A stretch of DNA of 64,000 nucleotides from Cliona cf. orientalis (lineage: Eukaryota > Porifera > Demospongiae > Clionaida > Clionaidae): assembly GCA_963930775.1 (NCBI GenBank), contig OZ005697.1:4238292-4302291 (forward strand), given 5' to 3'. Made by a program: the position numbers and the translations under genes. The notes below the pieces were generated by a model. It searched no databases. It was not told the origin of the DNA and saw nothing but the letters and a program-made list of their open reading frames with translations. This document shows, piece after piece, positions 11,640 through 22,000 of the stretch. Position 1 is the stretch's first letter. The number at the start of each line of letters is the position of its first letter.

Positions 11640-11790
11640 AGTATCCGACTCATGTATCCCAGTGAATACATTATAAGCTCAGTGCTACTTTCTCTGACAA
11701 GTACCGCCAGCCGAACTTCACGTGTTCTCTTGGCTGACGTAATCCCGTGGATAAACTTGATACAGAGCTTTGCAGGTTAGCTACTTGTCA
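11640..11790. repeat. Repeat copy matching 38.77-38.87 kb in reverse
   Basis: CTACTTTCTCTGACAAGTAC, then GCCGAACTTCACG, then TTGGCTGACGTAATCC appear here and, in reverse complement, at about 38770-38870. This is a dispersed family with no coding potential. The remaining sequence between 11.33 and 12.05 kb holds nothing else I can name. Confidence 0.6.
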
Positions 11791-12055
11791 ATGGCAATAG
11801 GAAAAGGGGAATGGTGTGGTTTTGTACTTCTTGTACTAGAGTGCATGACTAATTGGATTGTGGCCAACCATACAGCTAGCTGCAGTCTATAGATCTAGGG
11901 ACTGTACTGTACTACTGTGTACACAGCTGCTATTACCGGGGTTTTCAGGTCCGTTGTCAGAGCAGCGTTACAGTTTATTCGCGCATGCGCGTTTATCATC
12001 ATACCAGTACGTTCGAGACCGTTCGCTCTTGGTATGTACTGTATGTCTCGTCGAA

Positions 12056-13094
12056 ATGACACAACATTCTCGATCTGTGAATGGTGGGGCTGGAGTTTCA
12101 GTGTCGGTCAATACTGGGAGTTTCACTGGCCTCATTCCTGGCAGCAGTGTCTCTGTTCGGCCCATGACCCCCACCAGCGCTATGAGTATCGGCATTCAAT
12201 CAGCCCAGCGGTCTGCTTCGCAGCTGACTAACAAAGTGATTAACAAGGTATTTTTAAAGGCTGTCAGCAAATCTGGTGGGAAAAAAGCCTCTAGCTTTAA
12301 AACTTTTACGCTGAGAAACATAAACACTCGTGACATCAGCACATGTTCACAGCTGCGGGCTCTAATTAGAGATCAACTTACCACTGATATTACTCAAGGC
12401 AGTTTCGATGTTGGATATCTTCAGAATAATATGGTAATCAGTGTTACAAATGGTGAAGACCTAGCAGAAAGAAATCTGGGCTACCTTGCACAAAGGAACA
12501 AGCGTTATGTTGTGGTGTGATGGATTGAGGCAGTCGGCAGCTGAGTCAGCATCCACCAGTTCAAGGAACATGAGAAAGCAACAAGTGTCACCTGACTCTG
12601 ATCTTGAGTGTTGCAGTGAGGAAGAGGACACAGTGCAAAGCAAGCGTAAGAAGAAGGAAGATAAGGTTGCCACCATAATTGCTGATTTAAAGAAGCGCCA
12701 TGGTGACTCGTATACCACAATGCAATATAGGATCTGGGCTGAGATGGTATCTGGTGGCCTGCATAGCAGTTCAACAGATCCCCCTTCAACATCAATGTTC
12801 ACACGGGCTGGAGGAAATCATGGGAACACTGGTGGAAGCAAAAAAAGCAGCAGTGACACAACTGCATCTGTGCTAAGCCAACTTACGTCAGCTCTATTGC
12901 CATGTCCACCTACCAACCCCTCATCTAAGTCAGACAGCCCTGGTAAAATCATTGAGAACCGATCCAAATGTTACAGGCAGCTAGGTGAGCTCAAAAATCT
13001 CCGTGAAGGTGGACTTATTTCTGAAGATGAATATGCTTGTGAGAGGGAGTGCATTATGGATACTCTTAAAAAGCTTGCTGGAGGTAGCCAGTAA
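12056..13094 (+). pseudogene. Transposon accessory gene, copy 1 (beta-grasp-like + SHOCT-like)
   Basis: Not a named family to me. The chosen start is the ATG at 12056; the open frame begins at 11858. Region one (about 12250-12520) ends a ubiquitin/PB1-like stretch with SFDVGYLQNNMVISV and then MLWCDG. Region two has a Ser-rich acidic linker, a basic patch (SKRKKKEDK), the box KKRHGDSYTTMQYRIWAEM, then a proline-rich linker with TSMF, and a C-terminal hairpin (GGLISEDEYACERECIM) like SHOCT domains. The reading frame shifts once near 12470, so this copy is probably dead. It is homologous over its full length to the gene at 14399-15471, and like that gene it converges on a transposase (13324-13506). 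Confidence 0.65.
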
Positions 13095-13299
13095 GTTTTC
13101 CCCCCAAAGCTACACAACACTGACAATAATAATACTGTTATCAATAATATTAATACCGGTACATTGTGCTGTGGTATAATAGTGATTAAAATGACTGTGT
13201 TCAAATGTATCCACATCTTGAGATATGACCATAACAGTTTTCAACTGAGACCATCCCAAATGCCATGGCTAGTACTGAGTACTCTGGGAGCAGAGCACA

Positions 13300-13510
13300 C
13301 CTAGAAGAGTTGATGATTCTCTTTCATGATGTTTTGATTTGGCTGAATACTCCCTCAGCAGGCATCAGATCTGGTGAGTAAGGAGGTAAGTAACACAGCC
13401 TGGCACCAGCTTGGTTCACAATCAAATCTTCAACTTCACACACATGGTGGATACTGGCATTATCCATTATGACTACCGAGTAAGGGTTGACATTATTGAA
13501 GGGCAAAAGA
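13300..13510 (-). pseudogene. Tc1/IS630-like transposase fragment, copy 1
   Basis: Only the middle of the catalytic domain survives: SVVIMDNASIHH (second Asp), then LCYLPPYSPDLMPAEG (Glu), with 35 residues between them. A Met replaces the usual Asn in the SPDLNP motif. The first Asp and the N-terminal helix-turn-helix are absent. It lies about 230 bp past the stop of the accessory gene, on the opposite strand, the same arrangement as copy 2. Confidence 0.75.
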
Positions 13511-13519
13511 ATGGGTAGT

Positions 13520-14390
13520 AACTAAAACAACCCACTGCGTTCAACTTTTGTATTATTAATAGCATCACTAACAAAACGATATACCTACCTATTCAGCTCG
13601 TTTTATCTGATCTTCAAGTTGGAGGAATGATTAGTAATAATAATATAGGTATAATATTATGATAATAATAGGTACGTATATGAAAGCCTCAAAAACTAAT
13701 AAAAATATATAAAAAGAGCTTTACTAGAGTATACCAAAAAGAACAGCTGCAGTAGCTATATATAATTTTGGCATTGTAAATTAATTTTAGCTATTTAGCT
13801 TTTTTCTGATATGAGGCAGTACAGTACCATGGACTCTTGCTATTTTCGATGCTCTTTACTAGGGCCTGGATGATCTTAAAGTTTCATGCAGTTACAGTGA
13901 TACCAACACTTGCAAGTTGTACACTGTATCATTTTGCGGCCATCATCACGTTGCCTACATATACAACAAACATGGATTCTCTCTCGAAACACAATCTCCT
14001 GCTTTCTTCTTGTCTTCCTCGACGGAAATGGAAGCTTATTTCCAACGTTTAGCCACCTCAGGTCGTTTTAGCATCGATACAGCGCATGCGCGACAGTATT
14101 TCCTGGCAGCAGCAATATCTCCTAGGAAATACGGTCGCGTCGCATAATTGGAGCGACGATTTTTCCTAGGTATATAATTTTGTCGCCGCGACACAACTTC
14201 CTAGCGACCAAATTTCCTGTGACACCGGTACCCGGTACTAGTGCTACAATGCTGATTGTGCGCATGCACATAATATTTTAATATTATGCACGCGCGTACG
14301 GAAATCGTTCCATACGCGCGCATGATTACAGTTCTGTTTCCTTCCATTTCCTTCCATTTTGGCGCGCTCTACCAAGTAATAGTGCAACTC
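13520..14390. other. Spacer between the two transposon modules
   Basis: There is no gene here. It is AT-rich up to 13.8 kb, then GC-rich with CpG-bearing strings (GCGCATGCGC at about 14082, TACGCGCGCAT at about 14315) and a short hairpin around ATAATATTTTAATATTAT (about 14270). The TIRs of either module may lie here, but I found no end matching the region right of the second transposase. Confidence 0.5.
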
Positions 14391-14398
14391 AGTGTTGA

Positions 14399-15471
14399 AT
14401 GATGGCAGGCAATTTTGACCCATCTGCTATTGGATCCGGGCACAGCTTTCAGGCTAGAGTGCCTGGTGGAGTAACTAACTACTACACCCTCTCTGCTACT
14501 GGTATGTGCGGTCCTAGTTCTGAGCCCTATCTTCTACCACCGCCTCAAAGCCCTATTCTAATTGGAGATCATCATCACACTCAACTACCACCACAAGCCC
14601 TGTTTGGACAGCGTGAACGCGCACCCTGGCCAAGGCCTATGGAGCCCCATCATGGCCCGGATGTGGATCTGACTGGACATGATTCATCTCCTGAGCCAGG
14701 AAACACTCAGGGTGAGGAGTCCACTATCTCAGAATCTGCTACAGTATTTCTAAAAATTTTTAATCCACAAAATAAGAAGCAAGTGATAAACATGCGTACA
14801 TTGAGGGATTTTCCCTGTAATTTGGGAACAGTTGATAATCTCAGGGAAGAACTTTTTTATGTTTGTGGAGAATCGGAGCTACCAAGGAATTTGAAATTTG
14901 ATGTTGGTTATTTTAACAAGAACAAAAAGCTTTGGATTAATTGTTCGCAGGACCTGTGTGATGCTTGGTCTATTGTCCGTAAAGGTGGACGTCTAACATT
15001 TTGGTGCGTAGGTGTAGGCAGTGAATCAGATGATGCTCAGAAGAGGGGGGCTAGTACTAGCAATGCCAGTACGAGTCATCCTTCGAAAAAGAGAAAAATC
15101 TCCATGGACGATAAGTTGCTGAGATCAAAGCTGAACTAAAAAGCATACATGGGTCTAAGTATAATGAGCTCCAATATCGTCTTTGGTCGGAAGTGGTTGT
15201 ATCTGGAATGCACACAGATATGCACAAGCCCTCTTCATATCCTATGTTTGGTGGACCTCGTAAGACTCCAGTTAAGCAGCGCAGCGACTCACCGACATCA
15301 CCAACTACCAGTACTGCCATTTCTCCAGTATCACGCACTATGGAGTTGCGAGGCAAATGCATCTCTCATATTAAAGAGCTGGTAGGATTGCGTGATGTTG
15401 GTGCTCTCACACAGGAAGAATTTGATAAAGAACGGCAATTTTATATTAAGAAAATGGATGAATATCGTTAA
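14399..15471 (+). pseudogene. Transposon accessory gene, copy 2 (beta-grasp-like + SHOCT-like)
   Basis: The ATG at 14399 opens a 246-residue frame. It has a disordered Pro/His/Ser-rich N-terminus (about residues 1-115), then a compact domain of about 90 residues beginning TVFLKIFNPQNKKQ and containing LKFDVGYFNKNKKLWI and LTFWCVG, which looks like a ubiquitin/PB1-type beta-grasp. A basic SKKRKI string that could be a nuclear signal follows. The frame shifts near 15112 and continues with AELKSIHGSKYNELQYRLW, GMH..PSSYPMF, and a C-terminal helix pair (DVGALTQEEFDKERQFY) like SHOCT domains, stopping at 15471. The stop lies 67 bp from that of the convergent transposase. Its role is unknown; binding to the transposase or its DNA is a guess. 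Confidence 0.7.
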
Positions 15472-16374
15472 AAATGACACAATAAAAAAAATTAATTATT
15501 CTGTAGGACCTGGTATAATGTTTTGTTGGCTACTATAATTAACAATAACCAGCATGCTTAATATAATTTATACAATCCTCTTGTGTGACTGTGTGAAATG
15601 CACTAAGAACAAATGGACGTGGTGATTGTGTGGCTAAGTACAAAGCATCATTTGCTTTCAAGTACCGCTTAACCTTTGAGAATAATTCCTCTATGGGATT
15701 CAAATCAGGGCTGTATGCTGGGAGGAATCGTATTAGTGCCCCCACTCCCAAGATCATATCTTGCACACGTTGAAGGTGGTGAATAGTGGCATTATCCATT
15801 ACCACCACTGAGTGCATGTGTATTGACACCATTGTAAGGCATTAACAGGGGTAGAAGGGTAGTACGAACAAAGTGTTCAAACACATCCCCATTGACAGAG
15901 CCCTCATAAATGTATGCATCCTCAATTCCACGCATACTCATTACACCAATAGCTGTTATTCTCTTTCCCCACACTTGTAGTTTATGTGTTACGGGTGTAA
16001 GTCCACGTAGACCACATCCATAAGCTCTTATACTATTCCTGCGATCTGAACCAGTTTCATCAAGCCAAACAATCATCTCTGGCTCAAACATAGATAGGTC
16101 GGCCATGAACATGACCCGCTGATCCACACTTTGTTGAAGGGCAACATATCTGAGCTTTTGTCTGGTCATACCCAGTCGATGAACAGTGCGACAGATTGTG
16201 GAAATATGGACAATTGTGCCAGTAAAATCATAAAGCTCCCTTCGAATCTCATCTAGGTACATGTTAGTGTTGTCTAGCAGTAGCTGAAGCACAGTCAGCT
16301 GTTCAAAATCAGTGAGTATTCTAGGTGGCCCATGCCTTTGATTGGCAGGTTCTACAGTGCCTGTAGTGTAGTAC

Positions 16375-16934
16375 CAAGAGTATATAATAGAGAGAGACTC
16401 CGGGGAGAGTATCCTACTCCATATGCCACAGTGCAAACGCGTTGCGGATAATTAGAACTCAACATCCTGCCAAAACAAGCTGTGAAACCACCAGACTGTG
16501 TTGCAAGGTAAACAGATGAGCAGCTTAGAGGCTGGGCTCTGGTTCACAGTTTGGATAAGCTCACACATCTACAAGGTGGAACAAAGGGACTTGGTGGTTT
16601 CACAGCTTGTTTTGGCAGGATGTAGAGTTTTAATTATCCGCAACGCGTTTGCACTGTGGCATATGGAGTAGGATATCTCTATTAGGCCACTCCAAATTAA
16701 TTCATTGTTTCTCATCCCCCTGAGCCAAAAAACTGATACGGGCGGGCGGCTGGAAATGGTCGTTTATTCACAAGTTTGATGGGAAATGGTCGTCAAAACC
16801 ATAAGTTTAGCGGTCCAAAAAAATAGAGGCGGTATACTTTTGTATTGTGCTGGTGCTGGCGGAATACATGCGGGCGGAAATCAAGGGGGGATGAGAAACA
16901 ACTAATTAATTTGGAGTGGCCTTATATACTCTTG
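16375..16934. mobile_element. Fold-back element inside the transposase gene
   Basis: It is flanked by the perfect 7-bp duplication GTAGTAC (16368-16374, 16935-16941). Its ends are CAAGAGTATA and TATACTCTTG. The arms include the near-perfect pair around 16410-16495 and 16595-16675 (CATCCTGCCAAAACAAGCTG and its complement), with a central spacer of about 100 bp. Removing the nested MITE leaves about 320 bp. It carries no coding sequence. The superfamily is uncertain. Confidence 0.75.
16685..16921. mobile_element. PIF/Harbinger-type MITE in the fold-back arm
   Basis: The ends are GGCCACTCCAAATTAATTC and its complement, with TTA duplication (16682-16684, 16922-16924). TCTCATCC lies just inside each end, as in the MITE at 9329-9581. 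It is inserted in the right arm of the fold-back element, so it is the youngest layer here. Confidence 0.8.
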
Positions 16935-17705
16935 GTAGTACTTTTCTGTGTACCTTCTCACACTCCTTGATGACATGTAGAGCAGTTTTCCCACTTCCTC
17001 ATAGTTCAAACCACTAAAAATGTGCAGCCATACAGCGCGCCACCTCAAATCATCGGAATAGGCCTTCCCTTGGACATTATCACTGCGCATTGAATTCAAA
17101 ATTTGCACAGTGGCACCTGTGCATGCTCATGAATGCTATGGTTGTACTTATGTAAACAATTATGGTCACCACAAGTTGTAGCTAAACAAACTATGTTTGC
17201 AGGCATTGACAAGTAGTTAGCCTTGTGCTATAACATTAGCTATGGATCTCGTTATGTACAGACATCCTACGAGAACTTAGAAAAATTTCAACAACTAAAA
17301 ACTTGAAACTTGAATCAAAACATAAAGCGAGATTCAAACCCGCTACATTCTGTTCCACACACAAGAGCCCCAACCACTACACCACCGCTGTTATCGCTGC
17401 TGCCAATCATTATTTCCCCCCTTTCATAGACAAACCCTGGAGACTAACCCTGCTAACCACTGATTAGTCTCGTCCCCAGACCCCGCCCCAAAAAGAAGGC
17501 GAGCGTTTTCTTGGTTGTGCATCATCAGCAGTTTTGTTTTCGCCGAGGTAAACCAATCAGATCACAGCTTTGGCACTGTCATATGACTCACTGCCCGCAG
17601 GAATGTAACAGTAGAGCCTACTAACCAATCAGATTCGAGGTTTGTTGAGCGCTGGCGGTGTCGGCGCGCGCACCCAAAGCCGGCCAAACCCAGCAAACGC
17701 TCGCC

Positions 17706-18075
17706 TAGTCTCGTCCCCAGACCCCACCCCCAAAAAGGAGGAAGAGGGTCTGGTGACATTTGAGCGCTTTCTTGGTTCTTGCAAGCTCAGCATTCTTACT
17801 TTTGCGAAAGCCAATCAGATTGCAGCTCCACGGTTTTCATGTGACCTTGCATCTGGTCGCGCAGCAACAATCGTGCAATGTCAGCTGGCGGTTTAGCGCT
17901 AGCCAATGAGAACGCAGTTCTTTGATTGTGCATTGCATTGCGTAGCAACGTGGGACTGGCACGTGATTGATTGCATAATATTGGCATGAAATCACGCGCC
18001 TGTACAACCAAGAAATCGTTCCAATGTCACCAGACCCTTCCCCGCGCGGGGATTTGGGGGCTGGGTACGAGACTA
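17706..18075. mobile_element. TAGTCTCG MITE, inner copy 1 (370 bp)
   Basis: The inverted ends are TAGTCTCG / CGAGACTA, and the 9-bp duplication ACGCTCGCC is perfect (17697-17705, 18076-18084). Nine-bp duplications are typical of Mutator-like elements. The terminal repeats extend inward through GGGTCTGGTGACATT. It is nearly identical to inner copy 2. Confidence 0.8.
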
Positions 18076-18098
18076 ACGCTCGCCAGCCCCAGACCCTT

Positions 18099-18468
18099 TA
18101 GTCTCGTCTCCAGACCCCACCCCCAAAAAGGAGGAAGAGGGTCTGGTGACATTTGAGCGCTTTCTTGGTTCTTGCAAACTCAGCATTCTTACTTTTGCGA
18201 AAGCCAATCAGATTGCAGCTCCACGATTTTCATGTGACCTTGCATCTGGTCGCGCAGCAACGATCGTGCAATGTCAGCTGGCGGTTTAGCGCTAGCCAAT
18301 GAGAACGCAGTTCTTTGATTGTGCATTGCATTGCGTAGCAACGTGGGACTGGCACGTGAATGATTGCATAATATTGGCAAGAAATCACGCGCCTGTACAA
18401 CCAAGAAATCGTTCCAATGTCACCAGACCCTTCCCCGCGCGGGGATTTGGGGGCTGGGTACGAGACTA
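18099..18468. mobile_element. TAGTCTCG MITE, inner copy 2 (370 bp)
   Basis: The ends and length match inner copy 1. The 9-bp duplication is CAGACCCTT (18090-18098, 18469-18477), perfect. The few differences from copy 1 suggest recent activity of one source element. Confidence 0.8.
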
Positions 18469-18691
18469 CAGACCCTTTTCCCTTCTTTTTGGGGTGGGGT
18501 CTGGGAACGAGACTAGCTATTAAACCATTGGCAACCCATCCCCAGCCCCTCCCACGAGTCCATACCGCGCATATCGCGATCGTTATGCATGCGCGTGTGA
18601 TTGCGTCATAACGACGCGCCGATAATCTAATCAGGATGTCCGTATATAACGATTTGTGCCACGCCGCGACCTAGTCTGGGTGCCAGCCCTG

Positions 18692-19083: not shown

Positions 19084-22000
19084 GCTAATAGTATACATAC
19101 ACAAAGTCAGATAGGTATTTCAACTCAGAATGGTATTTCAAACTCAGATGCCTATTTCACTTAATTGTAATACTTGTAATTGGTATACAAGATTTGTACA
19201 CATCAAAGTACAAGTATACTATTAATAATATAATAATACGATAAAAATTAGTTTGGTGATTGATAGTTGTGTATATACATCAGATGAAGGAAGACTTTGG
19301 CTGGGAGAAACGTAAACACCTCGAGCAAGGACATGCGAAGTAATAGGTGCAAGTGGTGTCAGAATTAAATTTGGCGAGAAAGGATTTCCAAAAAATGTCT
19401 ATTAGTTGCTTTCTGATTGTTGGGAAAGATAAGTTCAGATCAATAGGTGGTAGTGAATTCCAGAGACGAGGAAGTCTATTGAAATAAAATTGTTTATCCC
19501 TAGTGAGCTTGATAGGCGGCTGGACTAGTTTGTTGAAGGTACCAGACCTGGTATTATTCTGGCTGAAGGAGACGTGGTTGAGGATATTGAAGGATTGGTC
19601 GGGTGACTCACGGACTTTAAAAGATCTCACAAAGAAACAGATGTCACTGAGTTCGAACAGCATAGATAATGGTAGGACATTAAGCATAATTAGTCTAGAT
19701 CTGTAGTCGGAAGTGTAGTCATTTAATAGCTATGTACTTCGTTGCACGACGTTGGATTTGTTCTAGTGTGTTGGTATCTCTTTGTAGGAGTGGTCTCCAA
19801 ATTGGGGATCCATAGATGAGTTGAGATTTCACCAGGGAAAGGTAAAGCTTTTTCTTGGTAGTGACATTGTTTGATGATGTGAACGTGCGACAAAGTAGGC
19901 CTAGTATTTTATAGGCTTTGGAAGTTATCCTTGATATGTGGTGGGACCATGACAAGTCAGATGATATAAGTATACCAAGGTCTTTTTGTTGGTTACATGG
20001 GGAGATACTAGGGAGTCCGTTGATGAAATACTCTGTGAAGGTATCGTTATGATCTGATTTGTCTCCTGACTTGAAGATAGGAGTGATTGAATGGCATTTC
20101 CATTCGTAGGGGATGCTTTGCTTGGACAGACTCACAGAGAAGAGGTGGTGTAGGGGTAGATAGAGTGCTGAAGCGCAGTGTTTTAACAGTTTGGAACCAA
20201 TACCATCACAGCCACTTGATTTTGTAGGGTCAAGTGATGAGATGGTATCGAATACTTCAGAATCTGTGAAAGATATATTGCATAAGCATGAGGGTGGGAG
20301 TGGGAGGGTACTCATATCTGGTAGAGTGAAAGAGCTACTTGTAAAGACTGAATGAAAGAAAGTATTAAAGAGTTCAGCCTTGTCAGTATCAGAGGTAGCA
20401 TTGGATTCGTTGAGGGAAACAGAAAGAGGAATAGAGCGGCTCTTACACAGGGTTCCAATGTAGTTGTATATCTTTGAGTTATGTGATCCAGCAAAGGATT
20501 GGACTAGACGGGATTCATAATTAGATTTGGCAAGTAATATCTTGCTGCGATACTCAGATTCAAGGTTGTTTATTTTGAGTTGGAGATAAGGTGTTGCATG
20601 CTTGGTGAACCTTTTCTTGGCTGAGCGTAGGCATTTTGAAAGATGCCTAAGCTCAGGTGTGTAGCTACCAGCAAGGGAATTGGTGTCTCCTAAGTCTGAC
20701 CTTGGGTATGAACAGGTGCATGGCAGTACACTAGTATCAATGGAGCTCTTTATCGTGAGCCATATTAATTCGATATCCTGACTCTGGAAGCATGAGGAGT
20801 AGTCAAAAGTGGTTAGATGTGACAAGATGCCATCATAATTGGCTTTTGGGTAGTCAAATACATACTTTGGAGTTGTAGTGGTAGTCAAATAGGTTTGCTG
20901 CGATAGTTGGAAGGTGATTATAAAATAGTCTGTTGCTATCCAGTTGTTATCATTGATTACAGTTAGGCTGGCAACACAGTCGACTGAGTTGGGTAGCACC
21001 AGGTCAAGGATATTTCCTTGTACATGAGTAGGATGGTTAACTAATTGTGTCAATGAGTTATCAAAAACGAAGTCACAGAAGGCACGTGATGTTGAGGATA
21101 GCGTATCCCACTGTACATCTGGTAGATTGAAGTCACCCACAAAGATGGTATCAGCCGATGGGTTGGCATCAATAATTTGTGTCAGATTTGAAATAACATC
21201 ATTCATGTTGGAGTCACTTGGACTGGGGGGAAGGTAAACACAGCTAAGGATAGTGGTTTTGCGAAGATTCAGTCTGACCGATACGGTTTCAGGGGCATGA
21301 CTGGATAGGTTAGAGGGGATAACCGAAGCAGGAATGGTGTCTTTTATGGCAATCAATACGCCTCCTCCACGTGAGGGTCTGTCTTTGCGGTATATATTGT
21401 AGCTAGTTGGAAGAATCTCTTGATCAAAGATTGAGTCTGTTAGCCATATCTCTGTAAGACAAATGATATCGTAATCAGAAGAGTAGACATAGCTAAGACT
21501 GGAATAATGACAATTTATTTACTAAACTTCGTATATTAAGGTAGCAACAGTTGATTGTAGGATTGTAGTTAGTTGTGATTTTGCTTGTTATTGGATTAAT
21601 TTGAGAGTGATTGGACAAATCGGAATTTGGATGTAGATTAGGAGACGCTAGTCAGTTGGAGTTGGTGGACAGGGGTGAGCTTGAGTGAGGCCTCCCATCT
21701 GTTTGTGCCCTCTGACTGTGTTCGTCATTTGTGGACCTGACATCGTTAACAGTGGTGTTTGCGGTGTGGTTAGTAGCACTGCTAACAGCAGTAGCAGACG
21801 AGATATTATTAGTGTTGCGACGGGTTGGGGTTGGGTCAAGGGTTGGATCATGGGATTGATCTTGCAGTTGTTGACATCTAGTGAAGATGTTTTCATTTGC
21901 AGAACCTACTTTGGTTTTGTTGATGTATATTGAGTTTCCGTGTATTTTGATTTGGTTCCTCTCAACTCCACTGTCGATAAGGGTTCTCCTTTCCTTGAGG

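Follow-up and report, generated by a model that had tools for sequence, protein, structure and literature searches.

A two-gene IS630-Tc1-mariner transposon family in the sponge Cliona cf. orientalis: a transposase and a candidate cofactor

A family of transposons in the sponge Cliona cf. orientalis carries, beside a transposase gene of the IS630-Tc1-mariner group, a second, convergent gene for a conserved accessory protein, and the two genes move as one unit. Together they form the coding part of one cut-and-paste family, in which, by a narrow balance of the evidence, the accessory protein is best read as a cofactor of the transposase. Tc1/mariner elements normally carry a transposase alone; they are the standard case of a transposon that gets by with a single protein, hence their species crossing and their use as gene vectors. 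A preliminary description of the window (the whole 64,000-nucleotide stretch of contig OZ005697.1 analysed here) had claimed a two-gene transposon module from two copies found in it. That central claim is upheld by convergent gene pairs at 18/18 loci retrieved via the transposase and 36/36 retrieved via the accessory, by terminal inverted repeats (TIRs) outside both genes and by five unoccupied sites.

The accessory (plus-strand) and transposase (minus-strand) genes of both window copies were found again where they had first been placed. The copies had been taken to lie side by side; both are present, but copy 1 is nested in copy 2, as seen from the unoccupied site at locus L042. The locus contains the following features.

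11761 to ~17232, no strand assigned: copy 2, the outer, two-gene DD34E element, enlarged by nested copy 1 and a ~560-bp insert
11936-14235, no strand assigned: copy 1, the inner element, with TA duplicated at 11934-11935 and 14236-14237
11934-11958, plus strand: left TIR of copy 1, matching the left TIR of locus L012
12056-13094, plus strand: accessory gene of copy 1, a profile match (as locus L011), frame-shifted between 12465 and 12500
13324-13521, minus strand: DDE_3 transposase remnant of copy 1, 65 aa, catalytic spacing 35 (DD35E)
13526-14228, no strand assigned: foreign repeat replacing the remainder of the copy-1 transposase; similarity to L012 stops at 13525
13876-14067, minus strand: PHD-finger open reading frame inside this foreign repeat, with a PHD match
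14399-15471, plus strand: accessory gene of copy 2, by alignment to the family, frame-shifted near 15120
about 14735-15037, plus strand: PB1-like region of the copy-2 accessory
15124-15471, plus strand: HG..QYR.W box and SHOCT-like tail of the copy-2 accessory
15539-17108, minus strand: transposase of copy 2, catalytic spacing 34 (DD34E), with DDE_3 and weak winged-HTH matches
16375-16934, no strand assigned: insert of ~560 bp in the copy-2 transposase, with two palindromic MITE-like units and a flanking direct repeat, GTAGTAC

L042 is a 95% copy of copy 2, 2566 bp long, with TIRs alike at 25/26 positions, and aligns with window stretches 11758-11936, 14236-16374 and 16935-17216. At the site of copy 1 its sequence is continuous, with a single TA. 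Because L042 lacks copy 1 and retains one TA, the adjacency of the two window copies is a nested insertion, copy 1 having inserted within the 5' leader of copy 2; tandem duplication is rejected on the same evidence. An inverted pair at 11774-11793 and 17204-17223, considered as the TIRs of a single 5.4-kb element, was likewise rejected, as these are the two ends of copy 2, the right one eroded at about 17216-17232. The right TIR of copy 1 has shrunk to 7 bp including the TA (14231-14237). L012 is a copy of copy 1, 96-98% alike as far as 13525, and further copies of the foreign repeat that follows were found. The copy-2 transposase lies 67 bp from its accessory gene, carries a frameshift near 15800 and is interrupted by the insert, which L042 and L043 lack; beyond the insert its position is set by alignment to L042. 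The C-terminal halves of the two window accessories share 35% identity.

At 22/60 loci, a long accessory frame runs uninterrupted to its C-terminus next to a complete transposase frame; the broken accessory frames of the window are therefore frameshifts, and an intron was rejected as their explanation. The assignment of the transposase to DD34E holds for copy 2, whereas copy 1 is DD35E. The genomic family has intact two-gene copies; in the window both accessories are frame-shifted and both transposases damaged.

Genome-wide, the accessory family comprises at least 209 merged loci, a union of best-match lists formed from all 150 rows of one accessory list, a second list minus a few split pieces, and 46/150 rows of a third, whose remaining rows were set aside on visual inspection because their loci seemed to be included already. 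A convergent IS630/Tc1-type DDE_3 transposase accompanies the accessory at all 36 accessory-side loci, a set in which accessory copies away from the transposase were looked for and of which 6 were chosen because the lists gave no convergent transposase. From the transposase side, all 18 loci have a convergent accessory, L010 retaining remnants only. Eight of these 18 were chosen from 28 DDE_3 matches in which a single-sequence search had found no accessory, and 8/8 proved paired by profile. Because the other 36 were fetched by the accessory itself, its loss is detectable only in these 18. The 54 loci (L001-L040 and L047-L060; the count omits L041-L046, which were retrieved by DNA, and the later L061-L062) are partly non-independent: L003/L032 represent the same locus, L011 is that of the window, L024/L025 lie next to each other, and several are near-identical copies. 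Their matched stretches are separated by -10 to 242 bp.

By coordinates, 120 of the best 150 (of 548) DDE_3 matches are convergent with an accessory, with 44-663 bp between matched stretches. Conversely, 94 accessory loci have a listed DDE_3 match within 3 kb, and 91 of them are convergent, against about 0.6 neighbours in all expected by chance. In the pogo (DDE_1) control, none of the best 150 (of 210) matches has a convergent accessory within 1.5 kb; one has an accessory inside this range in a different arrangement, and one convergent pair appears when the range is widened to 3 kb. The mariner profile PF01359 gave no match in this genome or the control genomes and is hence uninformative. Single scans of viral contigs and of prokaryote genomes with the accessory-family alignment found no relatives of the accessory. 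Wnt matches at 3 loci mark the genome as that of an animal and agree with a sponge, known sponges having few Wnt genes.

Elements of the family measure ~2.2-2.7 kb, and TIRs of ~26 bp enclose both genes. Transposon ends excluding the accessory were looked for; what was found is inverted repeats outside both genes in 25/50 loci scanned (some near-identical copies), compared with 0/50 in direct orientation and 0/200 with shuffled flanks. Of the half that gave no TIR, several are degraded or truncated where the locus sequence ends. One of the 25, L021, has a differing terminal motif that may belong to a flanking repeat, and stands outside the set of 24 elements. A search among the retrieved loci and the window gave a match across the joined flanks for 4/24 elements and none for 20. 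The five unoccupied sites, those of window copy 1, L030, L004, L023 and L033, establish that accessory and transposase move as one unit; a single TA occurs at four of them, and in L023 it is displaced by one base.

Intact copies hold two convergent genes, each one open frame, coding for a transposase, mostly about 320-330 aa long, with HTH and DDE_3 regions, and an accessory of about 217-393 aa. DDE_3, HTH_23, HTH_29 and HTH_33 matches at E<=1 occur in 16/16 transposases, and a PDB profile search with the transposase returned PAX-6, Sleeping Beauty and SETMAR chains (E 0.0003-0.006). The third catalytic spacing, examined in 33 transposases, is 35 in 16 and 34 in 15, with no call in 2. With its DDE_3 domain, HTH, spacing of 34 or 35, TA target and TIRs, the family belongs to the IS630-Tc1-mariner group. 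Its members (among them Tc1, mariner, Traveler DD35E, Incomer, Intruder, Gambol and Sailor) are alike in DDE_3, this spacing, N-terminal HTHs, short TIRs and TA; typical ones differ from the present family, which adds a second, unrelated conserved gene at every transposase-fetched locus.

The two genes have a common history. Of the splits in the accessory tree, 11/19 are found again in that of the transposase, and every one of the 11 splits with bootstrap >=90 is among them, while shuffled labels gave at most 4 common splits in 2000; accessory and transposase distances are correlated (Mantel r 0.92, p 0.0001). Pooled over nine recent pairs (L005 in two of them), with difference-dense stretches masked as frameshift artefacts, both genes show purifying selection of equal strength, with an omega of 0.24 each (accessory p 4e-6, transposase p 1e-7). 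Unmasked single pairs vary, with a transposase omega of 1.09 in L020/L033 and 0.56 in L004/L005. Over 22 elements, mean identity is 31.5% for the accessory versus 50.3% for the transposase, and transposases of accessory-bearing elements are as little as 36% identical. Accessory and transposase have thus travelled, diversified and stayed constrained together.

The accessory is laid out as a PB1-like region, a charged linker, an HG..YTPMQYRIW box and a SHOCT-like tail. The beta-grasp-like domain of the preliminary description corresponds to the PB1-like region and is weak in the window, with a Pfam PB1 match at E 0.023 in copy 1 and none in copy 2. In the family, 5/18 members match PB1 at E<=1; among those checked singly, one, L027, exceeds the cut-off (25.2 bits against 23.6; positions 10-82 of 84). 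A single-sequence model of this region orders its elements as E E H E H E E at low confidence (pLDDT 41), and PDB profile searches with the accessory found nothing relevant. The SHOCT-like tail, also proposed earlier, is matched by 14/18 relatives at E<=1 (best 3.4e-6), those checked singly all falling below the cut-off; in the predicted model the C-terminus forms a confident helical hairpin. A stretch with >=5/6 basic residues is present in 11/22 accessory proteins (1.7 expected) and 0/22 transposases (0.3 expected), and the looser K[KR]x[KR] motif in 19/22 (10.4 expected) and 3/22 (2.3 expected), respectively. The strict cluster is absent from 11/22 accessories, including all seven of a deep clade (L002/L004/L008/L048/L050/L053/L054). 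Neither Myb nor MADF appears among 25 of the 38 families listed for 18 accessory members.

The preliminary description offered a transposase cofactor, a DNA binder and a host-interaction factor as candidate roles. As a cofactor, the accessory might oligomerise and/or bind the transposase through its PB1-like region and helical-hairpin tail, and its basic linker could take the transposase complex into the nucleus. By analogy with the Myb-like protein that serves PIF/Harbinger transposases, it may also aid assembly of the two transposon ends. The basic clusters, the PB1 match, the C-terminal hairpin and the PIF/Harbinger precedent of import by a second protein favour this cofactor role. Against it stand a PB1 cut-off passed by one singly checked member and the low-confidence model, as well as the strict basic clusters missing from half of the accessories and the variable unmasked omega. 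A stronger version, in which an obligatory two-component clade of animal Tc1/mariner elements needs a PB1-type, oligomerising, nuclear-signal partner with its DD34E/DD35E transposase, is put forward tentatively, at somewhat less than even probability.

Other roles for the accessory are less well placed. It may instead act on the host, its PB1-like region engaging host PB1 proteins or chromatin to counter silencing of the element. PB1 domains do join heterologous PB1 partners, and the accessory has diverged more quickly than its transposase, as expected in host conflict; the congruent trees, however, suit a partner within the element at least equally well, and equal omega in recent copies gives no whole-gene sign of positive selection. 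Host action is unlikely. Rather unlikely, too, is an accessory that represses or activates element expression or copy number. Negative regulators or second genes are encoded by other transposons (CACTA, Mutator), and convergence, with -10 to 242 bp between matched stretches at the 54 loci, permits antisense transcripts, but a protein that only represses would be expected to disappear time and again from successful elements, and no loss occurs in the 18 transposase-fetched loci, although L010 keeps only remnants. That a host gene was picked up a single time as a passenger and plays no part in mobility is improbable: PB1 domains are present in cellular proteins, which lends no direct support, and purifying selection and retention across elements with such divergent transposases argue against it. 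Coincidental pairing, or a host gene neighbouring the transposon beyond its ends, is rejected as virtually excluded by the excess of convergent pairs over chance, the pogo control, and TIRs and unoccupied sites that take in both genes.

Among known systems, DNA transposons typically have a transposase between TIRs, with extra ORFs possible, in the available portions of two accounts (PMC7325037, PMC2874221), and pogo members, in those of a third, contain either one or two transposase ORFs (PMC7386202). In PIF/Harbinger elements, as far as the accessible text describes them, a transposase and a partner of ~300-400 aa are both required for transposition, and their interaction is required for nuclear co-localisation (PMC9710019). 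They resemble the present family in having two genes, transposase and partner, and differ in transposase family, 3-bp targets and a DNA-binding Myb/MADF partner, compared with DDE_3 and TA here. The ciliate elements TBE, Tec, Anchois, Sardine, Thon and Tennessee combine an IS630/Tc1 transposase with extra ORFs, a hypothetical ORF being common to Sardine, Anchois and Tennessee, according to the sections available (PMC3464196, PMC7325037). They differ in being germline elements, some with a tyrosine recombinase or long TIRs, and the same sections mention no PB1 or SHOCT-like protein among their extra ORFs. The MUSTANG-B proteins, domesticated plant Mutator-like transposases, join PB1 to a transposon-derived protein; they differ, in the available part of the source, in that PB1 is fused within one domesticated plant protein with a MULE transposase (PMC3435246). 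No two-gene Tc1/mariner element like the present family is described in the literature searched, which excluded Repbase and most subscription papers.

In the copies examined, a large animal family of a normally one-gene type has a conserved companion gene, which points to a two-protein form of a very widespread class of mobile DNA. If true, an obligatory pair would be a further two-protein transposon design, in addition to those of PIF/Harbinger and of ciliates. The second protein has been kept across deep divergence, and the partner's contribution, whether to nuclear entry, end pairing or evasion of silencing, is testable. The accessory would also represent a new family of proteins that have a PB1-like region, and its recognition would guard annotators against mistaking such accessory proteins for host genes.

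The window holds two copies of a two-gene element, both broken. In each, an accessory gene on the plus strand converges with a minus-strand DDE_3 transposase gene of the IS630-Tc1-mariner group, the arrangement that a preliminary description had reported for both. The transposase of copy 1 (window 11936-14235) is reduced to a 65-residue fragment, the rest of this copy having later been displaced by a different repeat with a PHD-finger ORF. That of copy 2 (11761 to about 17232) is mostly kept, though interrupted by a palindromic insert of 560 bp and by a frameshift:

13520-14228: end of the foreign repeat in copy 1, with the PHD-finger ORF at 13876-14067 (minus strand)
16375-16934: insert in the copy-2 transposase; two palindromic MITE-like units, with CAAGAGTATATA as inverted ends and GTAGTAC as direct repeat

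Further copies of the repeat in copy 1 lie at C1:25212326-25212990 and C2:4153119-4153764, and a piece of it in inverted orientation at C1:25212144-25212277; the insert at 16375-16934 is not present in loci L042 or L043. Nearby, window 17446-18500 carries dense direct and inverted repeats with 393-bp spacing (300-nt copies 98% alike), and a 545-residue ORF at 19719-21356 (minus strand) resembles, by eye, a non-LTR retrotransposon in its endonuclease and reverse-transcriptase parts, the catalytic part being absent in frame.

The copies had been described as diverged and side by side; there are indeed two, but copy 1 lies nested inside copy 2. Another locus of the genome, L042, holds a 95% copy of copy 2 that is uninterrupted across the site occupied by copy 1: window 11758-11936 and 14236-16374 are contiguous there, joined at a single TA, and window 11936-14235 is bordered by TA on both sides. 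Because L042 has an unbroken site with one TA and the window has two, the comparison indicates that copy 1 transposed into the copy-2 leader. A relative of copy 1, L012, is 96-98% alike along window 11934-13525, and its terminal inverted repeats (TIRs) match over 25 bp. Members of the two-gene family seem to land inside or next to one another.

Searches of the window's genome found at least 145 merged accessory loci with the copy-1 query and at least 209 with three queries combined, some rows of the third match list being omitted by eye as loci already listed. Where a listed DDE_3 match lies within 3 kb, 91 of 94 accessory loci are convergent with it, as the preliminary description had anticipated, against a chance expectation of about 0.6 neighbours. 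A convergent accessory stands beside 120 of the best 150 of 548 DDE_3 matches, with 44-663 bp (median 197.5) between matched stretches. Single-sequence search found no accessory at 28 of the other 30, and a profile revealed a convergent one at all eight loci examined from these; the last two, differently arranged, each turn out to be part of a convergent pair, in L055 and L056. The ten best DDE_3 loci, all paired (L010 through accessory remnants only), and these eight form the transposase-side sample, the one in which loss of the accessory is detectable, and it is present in 18/18. From the accessory side, a convergent transposase occurs at the 30 best loci and at all six picked for having none listed (36/36), the opposite of accessory copies never beside this transposase. 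Both samples bear out the proposed two-gene transposon module. As a control, no accessory stands in convergent order within 1.5 kb of any of the best 150 of 210 pogo-type DDE_1 matches; one match has an accessory that near in another arrangement, and one is convergent within 3 kb. Pairs of two-gene elements, adjacent or nested as in the window, were observed at L055, L056 and L058, and at L024/L025 (C4:5068595-5075184) two nearly identical elements in opposite orientation appear to abut.

Comparison of near-identical copies gave sharp element ends. A scan for inverted repeats starting with TA placed TIRs outside both genes in 25/50 loci (controls: 0/50 in direct orientation, 0/200 with shuffled flanks), several loci without TIRs being degraded or cut by the locus edge; ends excluding the accessory, a case raised against the module, were not seen among these 25. 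They include L021 despite its differing terminal motif, possibly that of a flanking repeat. TIR-bounded elements span about 2.2-2.7 kb, except L047 (1940 bp). When the flanks of the 24 elements other than L021 were joined and searched against the compared loci and the window, four (L030, L004, L023, L033) matched another locus across the junction, with a single TA there in three and a TA one base off in L023. At 22/60 loci a complete transposase frame stands with an accessory frame that is 200 residues or more in length and open to the C-terminus. The element is a TA-targeting transposon with two convergent genes.

All 16 transposases searched match DDE_3 and several HTH families, and among PDB chains the transposase profile matches those of PAX-6, Sleeping Beauty and SETMAR. 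Catalytic spacing is 34 in 15 and 35 in 16 of 33 transposases (no call for two); the earlier label DD34E therefore suits part of the group and is not apt for the whole.

Of 50 elements with both genes, 33 in which each gene was of sufficient length were dereplicated at 90% transposase identity to 22 for evolutionary comparison. Distance matrices of the two proteins correlate (r 0.92, p 0.0001), and the trees have 11 of 19 splits in common, compared with at most four in 2000 label shuffles; all accessory splits with bootstrap of at least 90 recur in the transposase tree, the eight unshared ones having 81 or less. Over nine recent pairs, with difference-dense stretches masked as frameshift artefacts and L005 used twice, omega is 0.24 for both accessory (21 replacement, 24 silent changes; p 4e-6) and transposase (25 and 31; p 1e-7). 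Unmasked single pairs vary (transposase omega 1.09 for L020/L033, 0.56 for L004/L005). The two genes share a single history and, in recent copies, the same level of constraint. Over the long term the accessory changes faster (mean identity 31.5% versus 50.3% across the 22).

Besides a PB1-like region and a SHOCT-like tail, the accessory has a linker with many charged residues and an HG..YTPMQYRIW box. At E<=1, PB1 matches 5/18 members (one above the PB1 cut-off) and SHOCT 14/18; PDB profile searches returned nothing relevant. For the C-terminal half of the copy-1 protein, AlphaFold gave a model (mean pLDDT 62) in which a long helix, the QYRIW helix after it and a terminal helical hairpin are confidently predicted and the remainder is not; the PB1-like piece alone is poorly predicted. 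Five basic residues within six occur in 11/22 accessory proteins (1.7 expected) and 0/22 transposases, and in 0/7 accessory members of one deep clade. Relatives were not found in scans of one viral and one prokaryote collection. The host, whose genome matches Wnt at three loci, is an animal and probably a sponge.

As excerpts of the literature put it, DNA transposons typically consist of a transposase between TIRs, with extra ORFs possible (PMC2874221, PMC7325037); pogo members encode transposases in one or two ORFs (PMC7386202), ciliate elements of the IS630-Tc1-mariner group bear other ORFs (PMC7325037, PMC3464196), and two genes distinguish PIF elements from other DNA transposons (PMC9710019). 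Our literature searches, which did not extend to Repbase, found no description of the present pair. A host-directed role for the accessory seems unlikely, and a regulatory one somewhat more so. Among tested systems, PIF/Harbinger is the closest model: there the second protein is reported to bind the transposase so that the two co-localise in the nucleus (PMC9710019). The accessory may well be a similar partner of its transposase, one that would oligomerise through the PB1-like region and hairpin, provide nuclear entry and help assembly at the TIRs.
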